Source: a virus. From it: a DNA stretch of 36,824 nt. The stretch spans positions 1 through 36,824 of the IMG/VR virus record IMGVR_UViG_3300032241_002289; one strand, given 5' to 3'. Of the stretch, positions 8,005 through 21,709 are shown in pieces. Every line of letters begins with the position of its first letter. Position 1 is the stretch's first letter. The notes under the pieces were generated by a model. The model ran no database searches and was not told the origin of the DNA. It saw nothing but the letters and a program-made list of their open reading frames with translations. Made by a program: the position numbers and the translations under genes.

Positions 8005-8078
8005 TGGAGCGGGAGAAGGGAATCGAACCCTCGACTTTAGCTTGGAAGGCTAAGGTAATACCATTTTACGACTCCCGC
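8005..8078 (-). tRNA. tRNA-Gly (UCC)
   Basis: The acceptor strands 8072-8078 and 8009-8015 pair perfectly (GCGGGAG/CTCCCGC), the T arm has GGTTCGATT and CCA is encoded at 8005-8007. The anticodon loop CTTCCAA gives anticodon UCC, reading GGA. Confidence 0.95.
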
Positions 8079-8079
8079 T

Positions 8080-8153
8080 TGGCTCCCCGGTACAGACTCG
8101 AACTGCAACGAACGGTTTTGGAGACCGCTATGCTACCATTACATCACCAGGGA
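8080..8153 (-). tRNA. tRNA-Trp (CCA)
   Basis: The 7-bp acceptor stem (8147-8153 with 8084-8090, one G-U) and encoded CCA at 8080-8082 are clear. The anticodon loop CTCCAAA gives anticodon CCA. It is separated from tRNA-Gly by one base. Confidence 0.93.
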
Positions 8154-8161
8154 ATTGTTGG

Positions 8162-8280
8162 TGAACAAGTCGTTATCACTGCCACGCCCGGATATTATTA
8201 CTCGCTCGGCAGGGGTACGTCACTGGACGGTTAGGAAAGGTAACCCGTGTGCTGTTAACACTGCTCAAACGACTTGTTCA
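8162..8280 (-). ncRNA. Stem-closed spacer RNA 1, cloverleaf-like, unknown class
   Basis: Two perfectly complementary 13-base arms (8162-8174 and 8268-8280) enclose a 93-base interior. Inside are three further stems: CTGCC/GGCAG (8179-8183 with 8208-8212), GGTTA/TAACC with a 7-base loop (8229-8233 with 8241-8245), and GTGT/ACAC (8247-8250 with 8258-8261). It fills the gap between tRNA-Trp and tRNA-Cys exactly and has no open frame of note. It lacks a T-loop sequence, so it is not a normal tRNA. T4 likewise has small stable RNAs (C and D) in its tRNA cluster. The strand is assumed from the flanking tRNAs. Confidence 0.65.
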
Positions 8281-8285
8281 TAGTA

Positions 8286-8363
8286 TGGAGCAACGGGCTG
8301 GATTTGAACCAGCGGTTTTAGGGATTTGCAGTCCCTTGCATTGGGCCGCTCTGCCACCGTTGC
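8286..8363 (-). tRNA. tRNA-Cys (GCA)
   Basis: A perfect 7-bp acceptor stem (8357-8363 with 8290-8296), encoded CCA at 8286-8288, and an anticodon loop CTGCAAA giving GCA. Confidence 0.93.
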
Positions 8364-8369
8364 ATGTGT

Positions 8370-8445
8370 TGGCTCCGGTCCCTGGAATCGAACCAGGCTT
8401 CATGGATTAACAGTCCACCGCCTACACCGTGTTTGCTTGACCGGA
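8370..8445 (-). tRNA. tRNA-Asn (GUU)
   Basis: A perfect 7-bp acceptor stem (8439-8445 with 8374-8380), encoded CCA at 8370-8372, and an anticodon loop CTGTTAA giving GUU. Confidence 0.93.
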
Positions 8446-8451
8446 ATTGTG

Positions 8452-8595
8452 CTATCTAAAAAACCTACGTACTATCCATTTGACCCAGAAATATTTGATG
8501 CTTCTGGGCATGAAATCGTCGGTCCAATTAAAAGGATCCGGCAATTCTTTAGGAGTATTTCCATAAGCGCGATTTAATGTATCTTTTGTTGACAT
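8452..8595 (-). CDS. 47-residue protein inside the tRNA array
   Basis: An ATG at 8595 with an AAGGA ribosome binding site opens a 47-codon frame, beginning MSTKDTLNRAYGNTPKELPD and ending in a Trp/Arg/Phe-rich basic tail (KWIVRRFFR). It exactly fills the interval between tRNA-Asn and tRNA-Glu. The amphipathic basic tail could contact membrane or RNA. I do not recognise a family. Confidence 0.7.
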   Translation of the reverse strand: MSTKDTLNRAYGNTPKELPDPFNWTDDFMPRSIKYFWVKWIVRRFFR

Positions 8596-8614
8596 GACCG
8601 ATCCTTTTATTAAA

Positions 8615-8689
8615 TGGTACACTGTAGGGGAATCGAACCCCTATTACTGCCGTGAAAGGGCAGTGTCCTGACCGTTAGACGAACAGTGC
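8615..8689 (-). tRNA. tRNA-Glu (UUC)
   Basis: Acceptor strands 8683-8689 and 8619-8625 pair with a terminal G-U, CCA is encoded at 8615-8617, and the anticodon loop CTTTCAC gives UUC. Confidence 0.93.
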
Positions 8690-8690
8690 A

Positions 8691-8893
8691 TTATTGTTAA
8701 GACCACTGTTGCACGTTTAAGAAGTTCGGGCCGGTGCCATTGACTGGTCCTCTGCACTGACTTCCCCTTGATTACACCTTTCATACTGCTTCAGCCAGCA
8801 GTCATCTCCAGATCATGGATGGACGCCTCAAGGGTGGTTATATTCCTCAACAGTTAGGATTGCTTATTCTTTCTCACGCAATCTTAACAATAA
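8691..8893. ncRNA. Stem-closed spacer RNA 2, unknown class
   Basis: Perfect 12-base complementary arms (8691-8702 and 8882-8893) bracket the whole gap between tRNA-Glu and tRNA-Tyr. Internal stems include an 8-bp stem with 7-base loop (8728-8735 with 8743-8750), a 6-bp stem (8785-8790 with 8797-8802), and an 11-bp hairpin (8853-8863 with 8878-8888) that shares bases with the closing arm and so forms an alternative structure. Two of these stems contain G-U pairs on the plus strand that would be A-C on the minus strand, so the transcribed strand is uncertain even though the tRNAs are on the minus strand. Confidence 0.6.
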
Positions 8894-8979
8894 TGGTGGG
8901 CCAGGAAAGATTCGAACTTTCGTACGCATAAGCGGGGAGATTTACAGTCTCCTGGTTTTAGCCACTCACCCACCGACCC
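8894..8979 (-). tRNA. tRNA-Tyr (GUA)
   Basis: An 86-base class II tRNA with a long variable arm, acceptor strands 8973-8979 and 8898-8904, encoded CCA at 8894-8896 and anticodon loop CTGTAAA giving GUA. It abuts spacer RNA 2 without a gap. Confidence 0.93.
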
Positions 8980-15433: not shown

Positions 15434-16177
15434 TTATTCAAATGTCTTGGTCAAGGATGCTACCACTGCGTTACGATACAGTTTTTGTCCATTGATTGTG
15501 TCAGCTGTTTGAGCAGCAACACTCACATTGGTATTGGTATAATACTTGGCAGTAACGGTCCAATCTTTTGGCAATGCATAACCAAGGCCAACGTTGATAT
15601 CATTATAACTGAGTGTAGAATGATTAGCAACTGCGGTATGACCATAGTGAGCCAAGAAACTCAAGTCTTTCAACTTGGCACTGAGCAACTCAAATGATTG
15701 AGCAACGTCTGCCTGTGTATAGTTTGAATTTTTAGCATTAACAGTACCGAAGTAACCGTTGCCCAAAGTTTGACTATACTTGGCACTGACGGGACCGTAA
15801 CCTAGACCAGCAAAGGCTTCGTAGGTGTCAAAGTTACTACCTGTACCTGTTACAGTAGCACGTGGATAAAAGTAGTTGTGTGTACCAACATCAATGGTGA
15901 TGCCTTTGTAGATGTCTTTCTTGTATCCAGCATATAAGTCGCTTTCTACACCTGCGCCATTTGTATACATCTGACTTGAAACACTACTGTTCCAGTTGCC
16001 AATATACAAACCGCTTGAGTGAGCATAGTCGATTCCGCCTTGGACAGCAGGAGCATTTTGGGATTGACTAATGCCGCGTAAACGGTAGTCACTGGTCAAA
16101 CCTAAATTGCCAGATACCTGGGCGTGAGCCGCGGTAATGCCAGCCATTGCGAATAATGCTAATAATAATTTTTTCAT
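15434..16177 (-). CDS. TorF-family outer-membrane porin-like protein
   Basis: From ATG 16177 (AAAGGA ribosome binding site 10 bases upstream) the protein has 247 residues and a clear signal peptide, MKKLLLALFAMAGITAAHAQ. The mature part begins VSGNLGLTSDYRLRGISQS, the hallmark opening of TorF-type putative porins, followed by alternating aromatic beta strands and a C-terminal Phe-Glu end (KTFE). Such proteins form outer-membrane channels. In a phage genome this would change host permeability or receptor exposure. An upstream in-frame Met at 16216 is less likely. Confidence 0.85.
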   Translation of the reverse strand: MKKLLLALFAMAGITAAHAQVSGNLGLTSDYRLRGISQSQNAPAVQGGIDYAHSSGLYIGNWNSSVSSQMYTNGAGVESDLYAGYKKDIYKGITIDVGTHNYFYPRATVTGTGSNFDTYEAFAGLGYGPVSAKYSQTLGNGYFGTVNAKNSNYTQADVAQSFELLSAKLKDLSFLAHYGHTAVANHSTLSYNDINVGLGYALPKDWTVTAKYYTNTNVSVAAQTADTINGQKLYRNAVVASLTKTFE

Positions 16178-16217
16178 TTGTTTTATTTCCTTTAAGAATG
16201 TTGATACAAAGCTCAAC

Positions 16218-16863: not shown

Positions 16864-17967
16864 TCAGGCACCCAGACAGTAAGATTTGGACCAGATCGCT
16901 TGTTTTTTCAGCATACCGCCGCTGCGTTCCAAACGAGTCAACAAGAATTGGTACAGGCGTTGCTCGGATTGCATGTTGTAGAATCCCTTGACATAGTTTT
17001 GTGCCACAGGATTTTTTTGTTCCAGCATGATCTTCAGAGAACCTTCGATACGATCAAAGTTTACATTGTGACGCCCATACAGAAATTCGCCCTGCATGAA
17101 TTCAAATTCTATGTTGTATCTTTTCTGTGCATAGCTGACTCCAGGATTCAATTCCATATGTCGTCCCAAAATTTTGCACCAGATCCTATATTCTAAATCA
17201 GTGTTGAACTGGTCAATCTGTCGGGTCGAATCAGGATTGCGTTGCTGAAACAGTTTTGTTGCACGTTTGGCCATGTGGCTCTGTTTGATATTCAACACAG
17301 GGTCTAGGAAAAAACATTCAATATGATCAATGCCAAGCAACGGACTCAGCACGTCATCACTCTGACGAGTATACCATAGTCCCTGTTCACAGTAAACATT
17401 GGGTTTTTCACGTCCCTGTATGATGGCCCAGTTGGTTCCGGCATAGTCGTCCTGTAGACGACGATGGTTGGCATCGCCTTCTACACTGGCTGAAAATTTG
17501 TTTAGGAAAGCACGATTTTCAAATATCCAATCTTCGTTGGTCACACTAAGGCGTTTGCCATCTGGATCAAATCTTGGAGCCACTGTGATGCGTGTGGTAG
17601 GATCCCAATGATTTGTCTGCATCCATTCGGCATGACTCAGCGGCATGTGCGGTTCGAATCCAGTGGGATCATAACAGATCAAAATTTCATCCAGATGTAG
17701 ATTATTACGCTTGAACACATTGTATATGGTATGACTATCAGAACCACCAGACCAGGCCAGGCACAGTTTATCGTAGCGATTTCTCAGAGCAATCGCATGG
17801 GCATCCATCAAGATGTCAAAATCTTGTTGGGGTTCTTGAGTCCAGTCGTGCAGATCATTTTGATCGTCGTAGCAATAAAATTCTACAGGTCTGCCCGACA
17901 TCAGGCTCTCATTGTAGGCCAGATAAACATTGAAAAATATTTTATCGTTAGTGCGATAGTGTAACAT
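16864..17967 (-). CDS. PP-loop ATPase-fold enzyme (asparagine-synthase-like)
   Basis: The 367-residue protein has the PP-loop signature SGGSDS at 73-78 followed by LDEILICYDP, as in the synthetase domain of AsnB and related adenylating enzymes. The glutaminase domain is absent. Such proteins activate a substrate with ATP as an acyl-adenylate or transfer sulfur or ammonia. It resembles the second PP-loop protein at 20440 in layout. It is followed directly by an oxygenase gene, paralleling the asnB-oxygenase pair upstream. Confidence 0.68.
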   Translation of the reverse strand: MLHYRTNDKIFFNVYLAYNESLMSGRPVEFYCYDDQNDLHDWTQEPQQDFDILMDAHAIALRNRYDKLCLAWSGGSDSHTIYNVFKRNNLHLDEILICYDPTGFEPHMPLSHAEWMQTNHWDPTTRITVAPRFDPDGKRLSVTNEDWIFENRAFLNKFSASVEGDANHRRLQDDYAGTNWAIIQGREKPNVYCEQGLWYTRQSDDVLSPLLGIDHIECFFLDPVLNIKQSHMAKRATKLFQQRNPDSTRQIDQFNTDLEYRIWCKILGRHMELNPGVSYAQKRYNIEFEFMQGEFLYGRHNVNFDRIEGSLKIMLEQKNPVAQNYVKGFYNMQSEQRLYQFLLTRLERSGGMLKKQAIWSKSYCLGA

Positions 17968-17988
17968 GGAGAGCTTTATAAAGAAAGT

Positions 17989-18004
17989 AGCCCCCGGAGG
18001 GGCT
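17989..18004 (-). terminator. Terminator-like hairpin after the tmRNA
   Basis: AGCCCC (17989-17994) pairs with GGGGCT (17999-18004) with a 4-base loop. On the minus strand it is followed by ACTTTCTTT. It lies just past the coding piece of the tmRNA. Confidence 0.65.
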
Positions 18005-18325
18005 GGTTGTTTCTGTTACGAGGTATTTCCTACCCTAGGCAGTGTTTAGGCTGCCAATGCGAACTGTTCGTCGTTTGCTTTTACGGTTTTGCTTCTACGA
18101 CCGGGCTTCCCCAATCCTAAGGAGTTTCACATTCCCCTGTTGCCTTCGTTTCTAGCTCGCCATGTCGAAACCGGTCGGACCCATTAAAAAACACACTCTG
18201 AATTCGTCAACTCAGCGATACCGGTAATCCGGTCTCAATTTGCACCCTTACGGCGTGTGAGTGTATTTTTTGGTGGATCCGGAGGGAATTGAACCCTCGT
18301 CCACAGCGCCTTCAATAGGAAGGAA
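18005..18325 (-). ncRNA. ssrA: Circularly permuted (two-piece) tmRNA
   Basis: In transcription order the acceptor piece comes first: hairpin CCTTC/GAAGG (18309-18323), P2 strand (18302-18308), T arm (18282-18298), acceptor strand CGGATCC (18275-18281), U-type position then CCA at 18271-18273. An intervening loop (18183-18270) follows, with ACACTC/GAGTGT and ACCGG/CCGGT pairs. The coding piece then starts GGGTCCG at 18182, pairs with the acceptor strand over 7 bp, carries the GGTTTCGAC hallmark (18164-18172) and the P2 strand CATGGCG (18158-18164), and encodes the tag ANDEQFALAA-stop at 18046-18078. tmRNA frees stalled ribosomes and tags their products for proteolysis. Confidence 0.9.
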
Positions 18326-18337
18326 TTACAACAATAA

Positions 18338-18354
18338 CAACAGTATAACTGTTG
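18338..18354 (-). terminator. Weak hairpin after the Bug gene
   Basis: CAACAGT and ACTGTTG form a 7-bp stem with a 3-base loop, followed on the minus strand by TTATTGTTGT. It could be a weak terminator or a processing stem upstream of the tmRNA acceptor piece. Confidence 0.35.
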
Positions 18355-18371
18355 CAGAATATTTAGTCAAC

Positions 18372-19283
18372 CTATTTGAGACTGATGCCCGAAGCTATGC
18401 CCTTCCAGGTGGCATTTTGTTTGTTGAACCAAGGTTGTATCAAATCATCGGGCATCTGTGTCAACGGACTGCAATGATCCACACTGAATGCTTTTTTAGC
18501 CGCGGCAGTGTTGCCAGCACGTACCAGGATCGCACGTATTTCTTTGAACTTGTCCTCAGGCATGCTGTTGGCCACCACCAGGTGTGATGGCGCATTCATC
18601 TGGCTCAAGGTCTTGGGGAATCCTTGGCTGACCAAGGTAGCGATGCCCGAGTTTGGCGTAGATCCAGTGATGCCCAAGGCATACATGCGGAGCTTTTCGT
18701 TGGTGGAGTTTATGTATTGATCACCGTCACCCATGAAGTTCACGCTGAAATCCGTTTGTCCACCCAGGGCACTCAGTGTGCTTTCGGTAGTGCTCTTGAA
18801 CGGTACTACCAGCAACTGTGGATACTTTTTGGCCACTTCGGTAGCCACCAGATGTGTGGTGATACCCAGTCCACTGACTCCAATGGTCAAGGGACGATCT
18901 GTGGGCACTTCCTTCCAGGACTTGTAGCGTTTAGACACCACTTCGAGTGGAGCATCACAGTTGGGCATGATTTCACGGAAATCTTCCACACGATATTCAC
19001 CGGGAAAAAAGTTTGGCCTGATCCAAAATGCTGTGCTGGTCGCCAGTATGGTGTTGGGAGTCTTGGCCACGTGCTGGGCCGCGATAGAAGCGCCGGCACC
19101 AGGTTTGAAGTCCAGGATAAACAGATACTTGTTTTGACCACGATTTGCTTCTTCCACTATGGTACGACTAAAATTGGCGGCCACGTCGCTGGGACTCCAA
19201 CCGTACCAGACTGTGATGGTTTCAGCTGCTGTGGCAGATAGCACGGTCAAAGATGCCAGCAAAAATGCGAAGATTTTTTTCAT
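18372..19283 (-). CDS. Bug-family (TctC) tripartite tricarboxylate solute-binding protein
   Basis: The 303-residue protein has a signal peptide (MKKIFAFLLASLTVLSATAA) and a Bug/TctC body: a PGAGASIAAQHVAKTP segment near 62-77 and a VSGLGITTHL segment near 135-144, corresponding to the substrate loop regions. Bug proteins are periplasmic receptors for carboxylates and are especially numerous in Burkholderiales. No TctA or TctB membrane partner is in the window, so it would have to use a host transporter or act as a decoy or sensor. AGGAAA precedes the ATG. Confidence 0.87.
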   Translation of the reverse strand: MKKIFAFLLASLTVLSATAAETITVWYGWSPSDVAANFSRTIVEEANRGQNKYLFILDFKPGAGASIAAQHVAKTPNTILATSTAFWIRPNFFPGEYRVEDFREIMPNCDAPLEVVSKRYKSWKEVPTDRPLTIGVSGLGITTHLVATEVAKKYPQLLVVPFKSTTESTLSALGGQTDFSVNFMGDGDQYINSTNEKLRMYALGITGSTPNSGIATLVSQGFPKTLSQMNAPSHLVVANSMPEDKFKEIRAILVRAGNTAAAKKAFSVDHCSPLTQMPDDLIQPWFNKQNATWKGIASGISLK

Positions 19284-19327
19284 AAAGATTTCCTATTAGA
19301 TGTGTTATTGTACTACAGAAATAAGCA

Positions 19328-19350
19328 ATGGGCGACCATTAGTCGCCCAT
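19328..19350 (-). terminator. Hairpin between the DctP and Bug genes
   Basis: ATGGGCGAC and GTCGCCCAT form a 9-bp stem with a 5-base loop. On the minus strand TGCTTATTTCT follows, a weak T-rich tail. It lies just after the DctP-like gene and before the Bug gene. Confidence 0.55.
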
Positions 19351-19355
19351 CATGA

Positions 19356-20294
19356 TCAACTGCGCTGAATCTGATCAACCAATCCGGTTGTAAAAAAGTC
19401 TTGATACTTGTCATATACTACTTTGGTTGCTTGAGCAAAACGAGCCTGCTCTTCTGCACTCATTTTGACCACTTCAATGCTGTCGGCTTCACAACGAGCT
19501 TGTGTAGTAGCAATATCAGCAATGCTCATGGCACGTTCTGCACGAGCCGCTGTTTGCGCTGCATCGGCTATCACTGCTTGTAATTCAGGAGTCAGTGTGT
19601 TCCAGAAGTCTGTGCCGACCAGGATAGTGGTCAAGAACAAGCTGTGTTCGGTATGATTAATCACCTTGCTTACACGATCTTGTCCCAAGGCATACACACG
19701 TGGATATGTGCTTTCTCCCACAGTGACATCGGCTTTCTCAAGACCTGATGTCAATTCTTCTAGTTCCATGGGCACTACATCAGCACCAACAGCACGGAAC
19801 GTGTCAATGGCCACAGGACTATGACTGGTACGAATGCGCATGCCACGTAGATCTTCAATCTTGGCGACTGTTTCATTTCCTGGAATGATACGGAAACCGC
19901 CTGAATAAGTAAAGGCCAATCCTTTGACTTTCTTGGACTCTTGTAAACTATCCAACAAAGTACTGCCTACAGCGCCTTCAAACACGCGAGCAGCGTGATC
20001 GTGATCGGCAAACAAGAATGGCAAATCCAATGCAAAAAAGTCCTTGTTGATTTTACCCAGCGTGATTGTGTAGGTCTGGCTCATTTCAATACGGCCAGCA
20101 TCCAATAGATCAACCAATTCGTGCTTGTCAACTATGATACCATTGTTGTATTTTTGACTGTATTCACTCATGGTCATGACTTCGATATTGAGTTCGCCAG
20201 GTGCACGACGATTAACCTCATCAGCAAATACCTTGGCAGCACGAATAAAAAGTTCAATTGGTTCGTGGGCTAATACCCATTTAATATGTTTCAT
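19356..20294 (-). CDS. TRAP-type (DctP) solute-binding protein lacking a signal peptide
   Basis: The 312-residue protein matches the DctP family: FADEVNRRAPGELNIEV near 23-39, DLPFLFADHDHAARVF near 93-108, EDLRGMRIRT near 147-156 and PMELEEL near 175. Normal DctP proteins have an N-terminal signal for the periplasm. Here the mature fold begins almost at Met (MKHIKWVLAHEP), with no hydrophobic segment. It would therefore stay in the cytoplasm unless translation starts elsewhere. A late promoter (20432-20439) and a hairpin holding the ribosome binding site lie upstream. No TRAP membrane subunit is present. Confidence 0.82.
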   Translation of the reverse strand: MKHIKWVLAHEPIELFIRAAKVFADEVNRRAPGELNIEVMTMSEYSQKYNNGIIVDKHELVDLLDAGRIEMSQTYTITLGKINKDFFALDLPFLFADHDHAARVFEGAVGSTLLDSLQESKKVKGLAFTYSGGFRIIPGNETVAKIEDLRGMRIRTSHSPVAIDTFRAVGADVVPMELEELTSGLEKADVTVGESTYPRVYALGQDRVSKVINHTEHSLFLTTILVGTDFWNTLTPELQAVIADAAQTAARAERAMSIADIATTQARCEADSIEVVKMSAEEQARFAQATKVVYDKYQDFFTTGLVDQIQRS

Positions 20295-21634: not shown

Positions 21635-21709
21635 TGGTGGGCCTTGAAAGAGTTGAACTTTCGTCAACCGATTATGAGTCGGCCGCACTAACCGTTGTGC
21701 TAAAGGCCC
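21635..21709 (-). tRNA. tRNA with anticodon CAU (Ile2 or Met)
   Basis: A perfect acceptor stem (21703-21709 with 21639-21645), encoded CCA at 21635-21637 and an anticodon loop CTCATAA. The stem-loop CGACTCATAATCG matches the E. coli minor tRNA-Ile2, whose CAU is modified by TilS to read AUA. T4 also carries such a tRNA. Elongator Met cannot be excluded from sequence alone. Confidence 0.88.

Follow-up and report, generated by a model that had tools for sequence, protein, structure and literature searches.

A phage-borne circularly permuted tmRNA gene and the putatively exchangeable intervening segment of its lineage

The question raised by this locus is whether a virus fragment carries a complete, circularly permuted gene for tmRNA, by which stalled ribosomes are rescued, from which lineage such a gene derives, and what is located between its two pieces. 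The fragment, in the following referred to as the window (the whole stretch of DNA analysed), is an unplaced IMG/VR fragment of 36,824 bases with phage-like genes.

Anatomy and surroundings of the tmRNA gene

The minus strand from 18,383 to 17,982 comprises a circularly permuted (two-piece) tmRNA gene, as determined with ARAGORN and two Rfam models. ARAGORN called a permuted tmRNA at 17955-18363 (-) with the tag ANDEQFALAA. The covariance search proposed in the first-pass annotation, which had been made from the sequence alone, placed both permuted-tmRNA models above their cut-offs, with 136.6 bits for RF01850 (beta_tmRNA; cut-off 84, E 8e-42, spanning 18383-17982) and 117.5 bits for RF04321 (tmRNA_permuted; cut-off 47). 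The permuted tmRNA claimed in that annotation was thus confirmed by all three methods, its tag by ARAGORN, and its assignment to a betaproteobacterial gene type agrees with RF01850 being the best Rfam match. A single tmRNA gene was found in the record.

In transcription order, the acceptor piece (18271-18333, minus strand; ARAGORN, Rfam) lies upstream of the coding piece (18005-18182, minus strand; ARAGORN 5' tRNA domain 18182-18157, Rfam alignment), and pairing across the join is present. The acceptor piece comprises the P2 strand, the T arm, the 3' acceptor strand and an encoded CCA, with the 3' tRNA domain determined by ARAGORN at 18309-18271 and the P2a strand inside the piece. The coding piece contains the 5' acceptor strand GGGTCCG, GGTTTCGAC, the P2a strand, the resume site, the tag and a downstream region. 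At the join, CCA ends the acceptor piece at 18271, and the coding piece starts with G1 at 18182, with GGTTTCGAC behind the acceptor strand. The acceptor stem GGGTCCG x CGGATCC is paired at 7/7 positions, including G3.U70, and P2a, the helix joining both pieces, is likewise paired at 7/7 positions (CATGGCG 18164-18158 x CGCTGTG 18308-18302). The CCA, the 7-bp acceptor pairing and the P2 pairing across the join are thereby all located where the first-pass annotation had placed them. The tag frame (18046-18078, minus strand; ARAGORN) reads GCA AAC GAC GAA CAG TTC GCA TTG GCA GCC TAA from the resume codon to the stop, resulting in ANDEQFALAA with an ALAA-type degron end.

A comparison with 169 distinct relatives, in whose selection P2a played no part, showed a P2a pairing of 95.4% compared to 75.0% with shuffled partners, and complete compensatory changes across the join, for example from CAG/CTG to TTG/CAA. 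G3-T70 was determined in 169/169 relatives, the base being preset by the search patterns for part of the loci. G3.U70 is the alanine identity element recognized by alanyl-tRNA synthetase (AlaRS).

Just upstream of the gene, a sigma-70-like promoter (TTGACT-17-TATACT, 18342-18370, minus strand) showed 10 of 12 consensus matches; since two promoter-like sites were found and 0.9 expected, this site is weak by itself. On the other side, sequence scan and folding revealed an intrinsic-terminator-like hairpin AGCCCCTCCGGGGGCT, then ACTTTCTTTA (17989-18004, minus strand). The extent of 18005-18325 given before is too short, as the gene starts at about 18333 or further upstream and reaches the terminator-like hairpin at 18004-17989.

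Among the phage-like genes of the window are those for a MazG-type pyrophosphohydrolase, an exonuclease, QueE, QueD and a 2OG-Fe(II) oxygenase. Since searches of the window for a large terminase and for SmpB gave no match, the phage reading is based on the IMG/VR listing, the gene content and the kin of the tmRNA. SmpB was absent across the 17 virus records searched. Seven tRNA genes were detected (8005-8979 and 21635-21709 (-)), namely a cluster of six (Gly, Trp, Cys, Asn, Glu, Tyr) and a single Met gene. Directly upstream of the tmRNA, genes for a TctC-like receptor and a DctP solute-binding protein are located at 18372-20294 (-), the TctC-like assignment being weak (below the Pfam cut-off). 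Together with a Gcw_chp-family protein at 15434-16216, they represent uptake-type genes on a virus record. The search of viral sequences gave only two relatives of the TctC-like gene, one of which shares a contig with the tmRNA locus L390 (see below), and the plasmid search gave no match. For the gene downstream of the tmRNA (16864-17967), no confirmed homologue was found in viral contigs. Among named phages, the first 25 kb of the window showed no near DNA match, and the tmRNA region gave short tRNA- or tmRNA-like matches only, with no close relative.

Phage relatives and origin of the gene

Permuted tmRNA genes in phages are already known, and the window gene is another such gene. According to a count from 2022, phage genomes contained 53 two-piece tmRNAs, of which 50 were aquatic (PMC9004378). 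The first-pass annotation was thus right in ascribing such a gene to a phage, but overstated it as something new. In IMG/VR, the degenerate tag pattern ANDE-x-FALAA gave at least 120 matches, and ARAGORN called a permuted tmRNA in most of the loci listed. Permuted tmRNA genes were also found in cultured Stenotrophomonas (Menderavirus, Bosavirus), Xanthomonas (Rb1) and Alcaligenes (QDWS595) phages. Like the window gene, these comprise a long closed segment between the pieces and TGAT before G1, while their tags differ from that of the window, one for example ending in ANDDSYTVRIAA. Pelagiphages and the methylophage Melnitz carry a two-piece tmRNA as well, reported for Melnitz to be under a glutamine riboswitch (PMC9004378). 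With these the window gene shares being a permuted tmRNA of aquatic phages, but they are alphaproteobacterial in type, whereas the window gene is of the betaproteobacterial type and showed no known riboswitch match in Rfam.

The permuted tmRNA of betaproteobacteria was reportedly described by Sharkady and Williams in 2004 (cited in PMC9004378). The window gene resembles this type (RF01850) in piece order, acceptor stem, T arm, P2, GGTTTCGAC and tag type. In contrast to the genes of betaproteobacterial hosts, it is phage-borne and takes a separate place in the tree, its tag comprises Q at position 5 instead of the common host R, and its intervening segment amounts to 88 nt compared to 25-43 nt in the eight permuted host genes sampled. 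These likenesses and differences bear on the possibility that the gene is a recently captured betaproteobacterial host ssrA with nothing special in its intervening segment, as capture from such a host had been suggested before. The best Rfam match being the betaproteobacterial model is in line with such a capture, as is the TGAT end before G1 in three permuted host genes (L150-L152). The tree of 126 tmRNA cores, in which the bootstrap had not completely converged and the position of a few of the long branches (e.g. L038) is uncertain, points in the other direction. Here, the window gene groups with the phage tmRNAs L048 and L101 with a support of 100/99, apart from all sampled host genes, the search of hosts having covered a sample of Burkholderiales. 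This group is positioned inside a phage-dominated permuted clade, and the one-piece genes form one clade. The closest tmRNA is that of L048 with 84%.

The distribution in hosts also argues against a recent capture. Among 250 Burkholderiales genomes, nine matches exceeded the model cut-off, eight of which are clear permuted genes, the ninth (L153) showing no sensible tag. In 399 Burkholderiales genomes, the pattern with a segment of 93-123 nt was not found once, and the segment lengths of the host genes stand against phage medians of 74 nt for non-coding (class A) and 96 nt for coding segments (class B), part of the shorter class B assignments in the first sample having been made by eye. Since the nearest kin are phage tmRNAs and no sampled host gene, a recent host capture is not supported and appears improbable. 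It is suggested that the permuted tmRNAs of phages have followed a separate history instead of merely being taken over from the present host.

In genome contigs, 16 matches were obtained for a tag carrying Q at position 5, and 15 of these are ordinary one-piece genes. The single permuted case is L129 (CAIMTR010000195.1), which carries a permuted ANDEQFALAA tmRNA on a tRNA-rich contig of 3 kb in a gammaproteobacterial bin. A standard ANDDSYALAA gene is located on another contig of the same bin (G002:C421). L129 looks like a phage contig that was placed in this bin.

Intervening segments and nested protein genes

The segment between the two pieces of the window gene (18183-18270, minus strand) comprises 88 nt, is predicted to be cut out and, according to fold and ORF check, belongs to the non-coding type. 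An edge-to-edge nested ORF was sought and is absent, the longest ORF comprising 12 aa. In the predicted fold, a closing stem of 13 bp starts at the A of CCA with its 5' arm (18259-18271, minus strand) and pairs with the 3' arm at 18186-18198 (minus strand); such closing stems covary in relatives. Three internal hairpins (18255-18243, 18237-18216 and 18214-18199) fill the region of 18199-18255 (minus strand). Segment and acceptor stem together reached -46.7 kcal/mol with a z of -5.26 compared to shuffles, the pairing of the closing stem with its own arm amounting to -14.2 kcal/mol and the interior alone showing a z of -2.4. A search for riboswitches or other known RNAs in the segments of the window and nine relatives gave no match in Rfam at relaxed thresholds.

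The phage segments are in general long and closed by a covarying stem. In class A, the own ends of a segment gave a mean of -11.6 kcal/mol compared to -4.85 kcal/mol with ends from other phages, and in class B the values were -7.0 kcal/mol and -3.7 kcal/mol with exchanged partners. A common fold of the non-coding interiors was considered as well and rejected, since on average they showed no excess structure over shuffled sequence.

The longer segments mostly contain protein genes. Three scans, covering lengths of 121-151, 152-182 and 203-233 nt, resulted in 152 distinct segments, 139 of them with a perfect acceptor stem; pattern matches with fewer than seven acceptor pairs (e.g. L285, L319), some of which look like chance, were excluded from the statistics. 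An edge-to-edge ORF, defined by a start within the first 22 nt and an end in the last 14 nt or beyond, was determined in 120 of these 139 segments of 121-233 nt. Shuffling of the interior with start and stop regions kept gave an expectation of 8.4 and a maximum of 16, and the reverse strand comprised five such ORFs. The nested ORFs form 56 families, and several were assigned to known domains, namely DUF2061 in L071 (Pfam, E 3.5e-20), DUF6356 in L350 (Pfam, E 4e-11), a GNAT acetyltransferase in L390 (E 2e-6) and CxxCxxCC in L064 (E 1e-5). A DUF2061 relative in MW202753 showed no annotated tmRNA around it. The pN/pS in frame was 0.28, compared to 0.94 and 1.62 for the two alternative reading frames, while class A segments showed 0.84-1.17.

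These data bear on the explanation that the loop is inconsequential and its ORFs are either neutral filler or frames left open by chance. Many loops are indeed non-coding and very variable, and phage genomes are compact, so that any gap may be used. Nevertheless, the number of ORFs far above expectation, the purifying selection restricted to the ORF frame and the known domains contradict this explanation, which is regarded as highly improbable. Several of the contigs with nested genes amount to 300-364 kb and carry a large terminase, which indicates genuine large phages.

Most commonly (62 cases), the nested gene stops with the TGA of a terminal TGAT, leaving a single base up to the 5' piece; in 31 cases the stop lies 12-14 nt before the 5' piece, and the remainder mostly reads into the coding piece. 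A Shine-Dalgarno (SD)-like motif was detected in 85 of 120 leaders, and in 81 of these 85 the predicted fold shows it paired to the terminal 20 nt of the segment. The shared C-terminal ends (SL, FL, FF) of unrelated ORFs ending with TGA|T would follow from such a pairing of the SD with the last codons.

A comparison of segments and tmRNA bodies revealed 27 pairs in which segments of at least 85% identity are located on bodies of at most 75% identity (random bodies 72%), although one of these pairs (L178/L188) has a truncated body and edge effects may account for a few further very low values. Three pairs were checked by alignment: L177/L211 (segments 100%, bodies 73%), L352/L366 (96% and 66%) and L408/L064 (93% and 73%), with the similarity of L352/L366 being limited to about 500 bp around the gene. 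These identities indicate that the intervening segment was exchanged between different tmRNA bodies. In the sub-clade of the window, whose 30 loci were fetched by the 5' sequence of the window gene, one tmRNA type comprises either structured segments or several unrelated nested genes, and nested genes occur in about half of the distinct segments.

A search of the open-licence PubMed Central literature gave no description of a protein gene located between the two pieces of a permuted tmRNA. A tmRNA database from 2025 describes, in the part available, intron-form tmRNA and odd intervening sequences, including one permuted gene whose intervening sequence harbours a tRNA-Ala gene, and no mention of protein genes at this position was found in that part (PMC11915505). 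As in the intron-form tmRNA described there, extra sequence would be removed from a tmRNA precursor. An exchangeable intervening segment that bears protein genes therefore seems to be new. In the five cultured Stenotrophomonas, Xanthomonas and Alcaligenes phage tmRNAs, no nested gene was seen by eye.

Proposed maturation and use

Altogether, it is considered likely that the window holds a complete and probably working phage permuted tmRNA of betaproteobacterial type, whose segment represents an exchangeable slot of this lineage. By analogy with established tmRNA biology, the following course is proposed. In the folded transcript, the acceptor stem would run on into the 13-bp stem that closes the intervening segment. 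Host RNase P at G1 and the tRNA 3'-end pathway at CCA would then remove the segment, leaving two pieces that the acceptor stem and P2 keep connected. The host AlaRS would charge this tmRNA through G3.U70, and the host SmpB would bring it to stalled ribosomes, resulting in their release and in the addition of the ANDEQFALAA tag for proteolysis, presumably in the course of infection.

A different use would be that of a decoy, in which the phage tmRNA, instead of adding rescue capacity, competes with the host tmRNA for SmpB and for ribosomes that have stalled, or readjusts tag proteolysis in infected cells. In phages, the fifth tag residue is variable (Q, K, R, L, V, T, M), with R being the commonest in the sampled host loci, and the database paper describes a phage tmRNA without coding sequence (DS6A) that inhibits the endogenous tmRNA (PMC11915505). 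The window gene, however, retains G3.U70, the resume site, the full ALAA tag and the stop, as a working tmRNA would, and the ANDE-x-FALAA frame is kept by many phages. A role as decoy is accordingly considered unlikely.

For the working tmRNA, the slot would contain either structured non-coding RNA, as in the window, or a small protein gene, as in the closest relatives. In the coding type, the closing stem would usually include the SD in its 5' arm and the last codons in its 3' arm. Since the stop is located near the RNase P site, translation and maturation should interfere with each other. A possible interpretation, which we put forward tentatively, would be a cassette site, shared by a large phage group, at which the tmRNA stem hides the ribosome binding site and the stop is placed at the RNase P site. 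Translation and maturation would then be alternative or ordered events, as the shared stem and the stop beside the RNase P site suggest, and the window segment would be another cassette with a function of its own. If this holds true, the segment cut out would represent an mRNA of minimal size, and gene nesting would be known in a novel form, with a structural RNA gene doubling as a site for protein-gene cassettes. Such sites would also newly give access to small phage proteins possibly overlooked in annotation, and would provide an example, open to direct testing, of an RNA serving either as message or as tmRNA precursor.

Apart from these considerations, some relatives showed deviating features. 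In L045, L062, L068, L071 and L366, GGATCGATT replaces GGTTTCGAC and the T arm comprises GGGGGCAGTGCCC, the P2a changes being compensated across the join. For the near-identical permuted genes L014, L088 and L104, ARAGORN gave the tag ESYALLHL, yet the ANDE-x-FALAA pattern also matches the locus. L074 and L386, which are located on large phage contigs, comprise tRNA-Pyl-like genes with a CTA anticodon near the permuted tmRNA, which are possibly suppressor tRNAs.
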